In this document: positions 36,710 through 55,194 of the stretch, in pieces
How positions within the stretch are numbered: position 1 is the stretch's first letter
How the letters are laid out: every line of letters begins with the position of its first letter
Assembly: GCA_016213245.1 (NCBI GenBank)
Contig: JACRBC010000021.1
Span: 1 to 64,000 of the forward strand
Reading direction: 5' to 3'
DNA: 64,000 nt
Origin: Candidatus Solibacter usitatus
GTDB lineage: Bacteria; Acidobacteriota; Terriglobia; Bryobacterales; Bryobacteraceae
Program-made: the position numbers and the translations under genes
The notes under the pieces: model-generated
Seen by the model: only the letters and a program-made list of their open reading frames with translations
What the model was told of the DNA's origin: nothing
The model's database searches: none

Positions 36710-37045
36710 TCAGAAGCCGGCCCACTCGCCCTCATCGAAGCCAAAGAGGATCTTCGCGCCCTTCTTGAGCAGCGGTCTCCTGATCAGGTTCGGGTTGGCT
36801 GCCATCAGCCGGATCGCCTCCTGGCGGGCCGGCGGGTTCTCCTTCATGTTCCTTTCTCTGTACAACTCGTTCCTCGCGTTCAGAAACAGCCGGTGATCCC
36901 GCGCACCGATCAGTTCATCGAGATCCTCCTCGCTTAAACCCTTGTTCAGGTCGACGGTCTCGATCCGCACACCCTTCCCGGCCAGGAAACTCCCGGCCTT
37001 GCGGCAGGTGGTTCAAGTGGGCTTGGTGTAGAACTTCATCGCCAT
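36710..37045 (-). CDS. ArsC/Spx-fold reductase with predicted selenocysteine (UGA at 37013-37015)
   Basis: Read through one in-frame TGA, this is a 111-residue ArsC-family protein. The N-terminus is MAMKFYTKPT, then the TGA codon (residue 11), then TTCRKAGSFL. Homologues have the catalytic cysteine at this place (KPTCTTCRKA), so the site becomes a U-x-x-C redox pair. The rest of the family pattern is intact after the TGA, including NPNLIRRPLL (about 85-94) and ILFGFDEGEW (about 99-108). ggag lies eight bases before ATG 37045; ATG 37039 is an alternative start. A hairpin follows the TGA. The family reduces arsenate or other oxidised substrates with thiols. selD in the same window also carries a TGA at its cysteine, which supports Sec decoding over a nonsense mutation. 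Automated callers would see only a truncated gene ending the frame at 36970. Confidence 0.82.
36980..36998 (-). promoter_or_regulatory. Predicted bacterial SECIS hairpin of the ArsC-like selenoprotein gene
   Basis: On the minus strand, 14 nt after the TGA, GGCCGGG pairs with CCTGGCC (seven pairs, one G-U) around the five-base loop AGTTT. The loop G and U fall about 26-27 nt from the U of the UGA, within the range described for bacterial SECIS elements. The structure is inferred from base pairing only. Confidence 0.6.
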
Positions 37046-37084
37046 GTGAAACGCTCCAGATTCATGATAGACCGCGGGGCGCCC

Positions 37085-37408
37085 TCAGTACCGCGGCACC
37101 GCCGCATCCACCTGCGTGCTCCACCGTTCAATCCCGCCGGCCAACGACACGCAGTTGCCCACACCCTGTCCCCTCAGCCAGTTCACAACCCGCAAGCTCC
37201 GCACCCCGTGATGGCACACGATCACCAGCAGTGTTTCCTCCGCCAGCGCCTCAAGCCGTTGGAATTCCTGCCGCACCTCGCCCATCGGCACAAGCTCGGC
37301 CCCCTCGATGCGAGCCGCCTCCCATTCGGCCGGCTCCCGCACGTCGATCAGCCTCGCGTGGCCGGCGTCCAGCTTTGCTTTGGCCTCCGCCGGCGAAACT
37401 TCATACAT
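37085..37408 (-). CDS. Single-domain rhodanese-like sulfurtransferase
   Basis: A 107-residue rhodanese domain with IDVREPAEW (21-29) and the active-site loop CHHGVRS (65-71), where C65 would carry the persulfide. Such proteins move sulfane sulfur, or in some cases selenium, to acceptors. ATG 37408 was preferred to the upstream TTG at 37423. It lies 39 bp before the Sec-containing ArsC-like gene and is the first gene of the long minus-strand set, so a shared redox role is plausible. Confidence 0.88.
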   Translation of the reverse strand: MYEVSPAEAKAKLDAGHARLIDVREPAEWEAARIEGAELVPMGEVRQEFQRLEALAEETLLVIVCHHGVRSLRVVNWLRGQGVGNCVSLAGGIERWSTQVDAAVPRY

Positions 37409-37416
37409 TTGTGGGG

Positions 37417-37445
37417 TTCTCAAACATGGGATTTTAGCGTAGAAT
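37417..37445 (+). promoter_or_regulatory. Candidate sigma-70-type promoter of the class III aminotransferase gene
   Basis: TTCTCA (37417-37422) and TAGAAT (37440-37445) are separated by 17 bp and match four and five of six consensus bases. The predicted transcript starts near 37452 and has a leader of about 115 nt before ATG 37567. The call rests on consensus matching in an A/T-richer island only. Confidence 0.45.
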
Positions 37446-54223: not shown

Positions 54224-55194
54224 AAGACTCGTATGGGCGATTCGCCCCGCTCCGTCACGCGGCCGATTACGCGGCCGGCGGCCCCTTCAGGCGCGACGGA
54301 AAGCAGCAGTCCGCCGGAGGTCTGCGGGTCGTAGAGCAGGGCCTCCACCTCGGGGCGCAGGTCCTGGGCGAAACGGACGGCGCAGGAGACAAACTCGCGG
54401 TTGTTCTTCAGCCCAGCGGGCAGAGCGCCCTGCGCGGCGTACTCCAACGCGCCGGGCAGAAGCTCGATCGCAGCGGAGTCGATCTCCAACGTGACGCCGC
54501 TGGCCAGCGCCATCTCCCGCGCGTGACCCAGCAGCCCGAACCCGGTGATGTCCGTGCAGCCGTGGGCGTCAGCATCCGACTTGTTCAGCTTGAGCATCGA
54601 CGCCACGGCGGCGGCCACATCCTCATCCCGCGCCAAGCCGCGCTTCAGGGCCGTTGTGACCACGCCGGTTCCGATGGGCTTGGTCAGCACCAGCACGTCA
54701 CCAGGCCGCGCGCCGGCGTTGGTCCAGACGCGCTCTGGTCGGACCACGCCGGTGACGGCGTAGCCGAACTTGATCTCGTCGTCATTCACGCTGTGACCGC
54801 CAAGAACGACGCAGCCGGCCTCGATCATCTTCTCCGCGCCGCCCTTCAGGATCTCGGCCAGCTCCTCCAGATCGCCGGCGCCGGGGTAGCAGAGGATGGA
54901 GAGCGCGGTGAGCGGCCGACCGCCCATGGCGTAGACGTCGCTTAGCGCATTGGCGGCGGCGATGGCGCCGAAGGTATATGGGTCGTCGACGATGGGGGTG
55001 AAGAAATCCACCGTCTGCACCAGGGCACACTCCGGGCTCAGCCTGTAGACGCCGGCATCATCCGACGTCTCAAAGCCCACGATCACGTTCGGATCTTTCA
55101 GCCGGGGGATGCCCGGCAGCACCTGGTCCAAGACCTTTGGACTGAGCTTGGAGGCTCAACCGGCGGCTTTGACGTGTGCGGTGAGTTTCTTCAT
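54220..55194 (-). CDS. selD: Selenophosphate synthetase with predicted active-site selenocysteine (UGA at 55156-55158)
   Basis: SelD makes selenophosphate from selenide and ATP, the selenium donor for Sec-tRNA. Read through one TGA, the protein has 324 residues. The N-terminus MKKLTAHVKAAG is followed by the TGA at codon 13 and then ASKLSPKVL. This aligns with the E. coli motif GAGCGCKISPKVL, where Cys17 is catalytic, so Sec13 replaces that cysteine and the essential lysine is K16. Downstream, DDAGVYRL, TVDFFTPIVDDPYTFG, GGHSVND and DPQTSGGLLL are all present. A reading that starts after the TGA would lack the catalytic residue. Sec-containing SelD is a known selenoprotein. The gene is coupled to pyrF and divergent from the GH51 gene. 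Confidence 0.93.
55127..55152 (-). promoter_or_regulatory. Predicted bacterial SECIS hairpin of selD
   Basis: Starting three bases after the TGA on the minus strand, TCCAAG pairs with CTTGGA (six pairs) around a 14-base loop that contains GGT close to its 3' side. The GGU falls 24-26 nt from the U of UGA, close to the loop position in the ArsC-like gene here. The structure is inferred from pairing only. Confidence 0.55.

Follow-up and report, generated by a model that had tools for sequence, protein, structure and literature searches.

The DNA analysed here (the window) comprises 64,000 nucleotides from Candidatus Solibacter usitatus and contains, on its minus strand, a frame of the ArsC/Spx type that is interrupted near its start by TGA. 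To an ordinary gene finder the gene appears split in two. The question raised by this locus is whether the TGA is read as selenocysteine (Sec) and, if so, which reaction the product would catalyze. As judged from sequence comparison, the product of the gene is almost certainly a selenoprotein with the thioredoxin-like fold shared by ArsC, Spx and YffB. To the best explanation as a whole, a predicted selenoprotein acting as a selenothiol-disulfide oxidoreductase, we assign a probability of roughly 0.8.

Reading frame

The proposed gene (36710..37045, minus strand) encodes 111 amino acids when the internal TGA is counted as Sec, and its product scores 59.3 bits against the Pfam ArsC model (cut-off 24). 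The read-through translation begins MAMKFYTKPT-U-TTCRKAGSFL and ends at a TGA stop at 36712-36710. The internal TGA (37013..37015, minus strand) is codon 11 and, as the initial annotation had claimed, takes the place of the active-site Cys; its assignment to Sec is based on the Cys codon found in part of the relatives and on the Sec machinery of the same genome, both described below. The codon TGC (37004..37006, minus strand) specifies Cys14, the probable resolving thiol of a U-x-x-C center, the redox motif of the window protein being U-T-T-C. A GGAG resembling a ribosome binding site (37054..37057, minus strand) lies 8 nt ahead of the ATG at 37045, in agreement with the site proposed for this upstream start. 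It had also been expected that a standard caller would yield a headless fragment, and the ORF list prepared without read-through indeed offers an 86-aa fragment with a GTG start (36710-36970) and nothing else. Since the product lies below the NCBIfam cut-offs of the nearest models (see below), genes of this type have probably entered annotations in such a headless form.

Codon 11 in related genomes

The read-through protein was searched in 257 genomes of the order, 121 of which gave a match. Close relatives were defined by at least 53% identity and comprise 84 genomes, i.e., that of the window and 83 others, which were fetched; the remaining matches are distant. The codon for residue 11 is TGA in 65 of these genomes and TGC or TGT in 19, with no other codon at this site, and the Cys/Sec pairing anticipated for this residue is thus present. 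Three positions further on, at residue 14, Cys is found in 83 of the 84. Residues are conserved on both sides of the TGA, the 66-row alignment (A2) having 11 invariant columns.

It might be argued that the TGA reflects a pseudogene, a sequencing error or an ordinary stop, and that the true product is the 86-aa ORF further downstream, since the standard list gives the GTG fragment alone and two of the 65 TGA genes carry an extra TAG within the match (G178 and G225; a third, G226, has a second TGA). The TGA nevertheless occupies a single codon position in 65 of 84 genomes, and its recurrence in so many separately assembled genomes argues against the error that the initial annotation had considered. 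Together with the conserved flanking residues, the conserved hairpin and the presence of decoding machinery, this makes the explanation very improbable.

A second collection contained 390 relatives; among the best 80 of the 390, titled mostly Bryobacterales, Bryobacteraceae, Terriglobia or Acidobacteria, 60 have TGA and 20 have Cys, 69 of these 80 loci being duplicates of the first set and six having been typed by a second reading after the search pattern had missed them. At the level of the phylum, 17 of 396 genomes matched at 1e-25, and 15 of the 17 have one TGA anywhere inside the match; one of the other two matches does not span the Sec site. A search of plasmids returned 14 records, all below 60% identity.

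The distribution of the two codons requires eight Sec/Cys changes on the tree. Good support is confined to 10 of its 81 inner branches, and the supported branches force only one change. Independent-pairs tests on this tree, in which Sec was compared once with the hairpin and once with the machinery, have no power, since the protein is short, the tree is poorly resolved and each test contains a single supported pair. Occurring naturally in 65 Sec and 19 Cys versions, the gene provides material for studying the cost and the loss of selenocysteine.

SECIS-like hairpin

Decoding of a bacterial Sec codon would employ a hairpin downstream of the TGA, and the initial annotation placed one 14 nt after it, with a stem of 7 bp. 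The start at 14 nt stands, while folding gives an apical stem of 8 bp with the loop GUU (hairpin 36980..36998, loop 36990-36988, minus strand). The distance from TGA to loop is 22 nt, and the minimum free energy (MFE) is -14.7 kcal/mol over 25 nt. The bSECIS model, as given in PMC13188914, allows a loop of 3-9 nt, an upper stem of 4-16 bp and a spacing of 16-37 nt, with G in the first two loop positions and an MFE of -7.5 or lower. The hairpin at the site where a SECIS element was to be looked for agrees with these published constraints. Equal fold stability was reached in 0.4% of 1000 synonymous versions of the window gene. Neither Rfam at gathering thresholds nor ARAGORN, which found no tRNA, returned anything in the window, and neither result speaks against a bacterial SECIS.

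The hairpin follows the codon. Using five fixed registers, a stem of at least 5 bp was found in 62 of the 65 TGA genes and in none of the 19 Cys genes; one of the three TGA genes below this length, G245 (3 bp by the fixed registers), forms 7 bp when a different register is allowed. In the 65 TGA genes the apical stem run averages 6.60 bp, as compared with 1.70 bp (sd 0.17, maximum 2.22) in 200 synonymous-codon shuffles, and 2.11 versus 2.05 bp in the Cys genes. Two registers, which differ in the letters of both arms, account for the TGA genes other than G245. The first is used by 40 genes (37 and 3 when divided by loop size), most commonly with the arms GCCAGG and CCTGGC, and its inner position 19-33 is unpaired in 9 of the 37; the second is used by 24, most commonly with GCGAAG and CTTCGC.

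The loop is more uniform. The letters GAGTT are present in 62 of 65 TGA genes, and 63 of the 65 place the serine codon AGT there; both are absent from all 19 Cys genes, which encode other residues at this point. Of the 233 Ser codons counted over 11 ORFs of the window, 16 are AGT, and it seems that the RNA loop fixes a residue of the protein. The same order also contains 15 more distant ArsC-like UxxC genes with TGA (L133-L147), of which the three scanned (L134, L137 and L142) fit NF041106, and GAGTT is present in all 15. It lies one nucleotide further from the TGA in these genes, which shifts it relative to the codons and points to a constraint on the RNA. The comparison strongly supports a mechanism in which SelB, carrying Sec-tRNA, would bind the hairpin 14 nt downstream so that the ribosome reads UGA-11 as selenocysteine.

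Two Cys genes from outside both the first set and the order, L220 and L227, retain 7 and 5 bp of the hairpin, respectively; a third Cys gene beyond the first set, L224, does not fold it. L220 and L227 have probably exchanged Sec for Cys only recently, and they represent further material on the loss of selenocysteine.

Selenocysteine machinery

The initial annotation called for selA, selB and tRNA-Sec to be sought in the genome. All are present, together with selD, in the draft genome to which the window belongs and which is 78.6% complete (tRNA-Sec, 78.8 bits; SelB, 354.6; SelA, 412.1; SelD, 362.2). The selD gene (54283..55188, minus strand; TIGR00476) is in the window itself, about 17 kb from the ArsC-like gene. 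It contains one in-frame TGA at 55158-55156 (AAGUASKLSPK), at what we take to be the usual Sec/Cys site of SelD.

Two window genes with in-frame TGA could also be accounted for by a genome-wide reassignment of TGA, e.g., to Trp. However, the 19 homologues without TGA all have Cys and none has Trp, the ArsC-like gene and the rhodanese upstream of it both end with TGA, and a Sec system is present in the genome. Reassignment is thus scarcely credible.

Among the relatives, SelB was detected at an E value of 1e-60 in 59 of 65 TGA genomes versus 12 of the 19 with Cys (Fisher p 0.008, uncorrected for kinship). The tRNA-Sec was sought in 17 of the 84 genomes. It is present in all six TGA genomes without SelB and in four other, SelB-bearing genomes, and was not found in any of the seven Cys genomes without SelB. 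All 65 TGA genomes therefore show SelB or tRNA-Sec, and in 7 of the 19 Cys genomes neither of the two was found. Machinery and codon are linked only in part, as the remaining 12 Cys genomes keep SelB.

Fold and catalytic residues

A structure model with Cys in place of Sec has a pLDDT of 91.3. Its nearest structures are 3gkx (Z 17.1), Spx (1z3e; Z 15.7) and YffB (1rw1; Z 15.6), with E. coli ArsC (1i9d) at Z 13.6; the Z scores against 21 ArsC, Spx and YffB rows range from 12.0 to 17.1. Both the fold and the Pfam score place the protein in the ArsC superfamily (PF03960), within which two specific functions have to be considered.

The protein might be a Sec-containing arsenate reductase, with Sec11 attacking arsenate as Cys12 does in the plasmid-type ArsC. 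The ArsC fold and Pfam score are in keeping with this, and the window protein is the only match to TIGR00014 (glutaredoxin-type arsenate reductase) in its genome (E value 0.001). None of six genus members has a protein above the cut-off of that model, i.e., no other ArsC of this type was found. For comparison, two ArsC proteins from the order were aligned with it, L149 and L148, the latter fitting TIGR00014; the invariant Arg90 of the window protein falls at the catalytic Arg94. The positions of Arg60 and Arg107, which we assigned on the presumption that the ArsC motifs mark them, are occupied by Asn56 and Phe103, respectively; Asn56, like Arg90, is invariant in the 84 relatives. Of the catalytic set Cys12/Arg60/Arg94/Arg107, Cys12 is thus replaced with Sec and only Arg94 of the arginines is kept, and the score of 34.3 bits is far below the TIGR00014 cut-off of 106.05. 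In PMC5155266, the catalytic arginines are named as required, and ArsC-like proteins of Pantoea without Arg60 or Arg107 made no contribution to arsenic resistance. Neither of the two flanking genes is an ars gene, so that the locus, as far as the flanking pair is concerned, is not an ars operon, as had been stated. The doubt expressed in the initial annotation about arsenate as the substrate is borne out by the loss of two of the three classical arginines, and we regard arsenate reduction as unlikely.

Alternatively, the protein could be a redox-sensing partner of RNA polymerase that resembles Spx but has UxxC in place of the CxxC switch. TIGR01617 (Spx/MgsR) is its best NCBIfam model (67.9 bits), Spx 1z3e is second in the fold ranking, U-x-x-C coincides with the C-x-x-C of Spx, and Arg58 is found at the place of Spx Arg60, a residue important for activation. 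The score is, however, under the cut-off of 75.05, although a Cys relative (L070) reaches 83.1; another relative, L132, has 71.0. According to a reading of the profile alignment, Spx Gly52 is replaced with Asp50 and Lys62 with Glu60. Gly52 is needed for contact with the alpha subunit of RNA polymerase (PMC2801614). Moreover, the chain has 111 residues versus 131-132 in Spx chains. An Spx-like role is accordingly quite improbable. The loss of the two ArsC arginines, together with the replacement of Spx Gly52, favors a general selenothiol-disulfide oxidoreductase.

Genomic neighborhood

The gene had been described as lying between a rhodanese and a CpaF ATPase, and at the window locus this is correct. 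The rhodanese (37085..37423, minus strand, with the start as in the mechanical ORF list; Pfam Rhodanese, 62.7 bits) is a single-domain protein with the active-site loop CHHGVRS, encoded on the same strand 39 nt ahead of the selenoprotein ATG. The product of the other neighbor belongs with the CpaF/TadA-type ATPases of type II/IV secretion; it scores 210.8 bits against Pfam T2SSE and 323.3 bits, which is under the cut-off, against TIGR03819.

As a general setting, only the rhodanese half of this arrangement recurs to any extent. A rhodanese is directly upstream in 33 of the 84 relatives, where it is the most frequent neighbor, accompanies both Sec and Cys versions and has its active-site Cys in all 33. 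In the other 51 none was detected directly upstream by the search used, which a more divergent rhodanese could escape. CpaF is a neighbor in 6 of 84 and is unlikely to be a functional partner. Other recurring neighbors, weak matches included, are a hydrolase (21 of 84), argD (18), archease (15), rtcB (13) and an acetyltransferase (6), mostly in the closer relatives.

In two genomes (G220 and G226; loci L116 and L107) the selenoprotein gene is directly followed by a second ArsC-like gene lacking the active-site Cys (NSPATRAA in G220), the product of which may be a non-catalytic partner.

Proposed function

Based on the fold, the motif and the neighboring genes, the window protein is probably a small selenothiol-disulfide oxidoreductase. 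In the proposed reaction, Sec11 would attack an oxidised substrate (a disulfide, a persulfide or a similar compound), Cys14 would resolve the resulting selenenylsulfide, and a cellular thiol system would regenerate the protein. As to the electron donor, the bacillithiol enzyme BshC is above the cut-off in all six genus members, and the glutathione synthetase TIGR01380 was found in none of the six, a test that covers this one type of enzyme. Taken together, these results would make bacillithiol/bacilliredoxin or thioredoxin a likelier donor than glutathione.

The frequent upstream rhodanese weakly suggests a sulfur-related substrate, e.g., the persulfide of the rhodanese itself, and we tentatively consider that the two proteins may work together. 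It is a good deal more speculative, and on balance doubtful, that they form a dedicated selenium-sulfur relay in acidobacteria using bacillithiol and not glutathione. In such a relay the rhodanese would carry the persulfide, and the U-x-x-C protein would reduce or transfer it; if true, this would give the ArsC fold a role in persulfide chemistry.

Comparison with known systems

The protein does not represent a new kind, inasmuch as ArsC-like selenoproteins, including those with UxxC, are already in print (PMC2398784, PMC13188914 and PMC1794560). "Arsenate reductase 2" (cd03032) of the Global Ocean Sampling selenoproteome, with 42 sequences, shares the ArsC/Spx-type domain and UxxC, but consists of marine reads and can be likened to the window protein by description only (PMC2398784). 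The same applies to the ArsC-like selenoproteins predicted in the cultured bacteria Desulfotalea and Desulfuromonas (PMC1794560). The arsenate reductase selenoprotein of the Sargasso Sea (TIGR00014) shares the ArsC superfamily and the Sec at the catalytic position; it is, however, a classical ArsC with UxxS, i.e., with Ser and not Cys third after Sec (PMC1088965).

Spx (1z3e, 7f75) and YffB (1rw1, 2kok) have the same fold as the window protein, and Spx also has the CxxC position. Neither contains Sec, and Spx differs in its longer chain and in Gly52 and Lys62, which the window protein does not keep. In Brucella, YffB contains only one cysteine and is a glutathione-binding protein (PMC3169414). 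A search of open-licence papers in PubMed Central gave no description of this subfamily in acidobacteria nor of its rhodanese neighbor.

The closest description is that of NF041106 (ArsC_rel_Se_1, "ArsC family (seleno)protein"), an arsenate reductase-like group with the ArsC fold and UxxC (PMC13188914). Members from the same order (L134, L137 and L142; 123-137 bits) have a SECIS-like hairpin whose apical letters agree with those of the window gene but lie one nucleotide further from the TGA. The window protein is 23-26% identical to these three and has 33.5 bits against the cut-off of 85. Judged by these sequence models, it very probably adds an ArsC-like UxxC selenoprotein that lies below the cut-offs of both NF041106 and TIGR01617.
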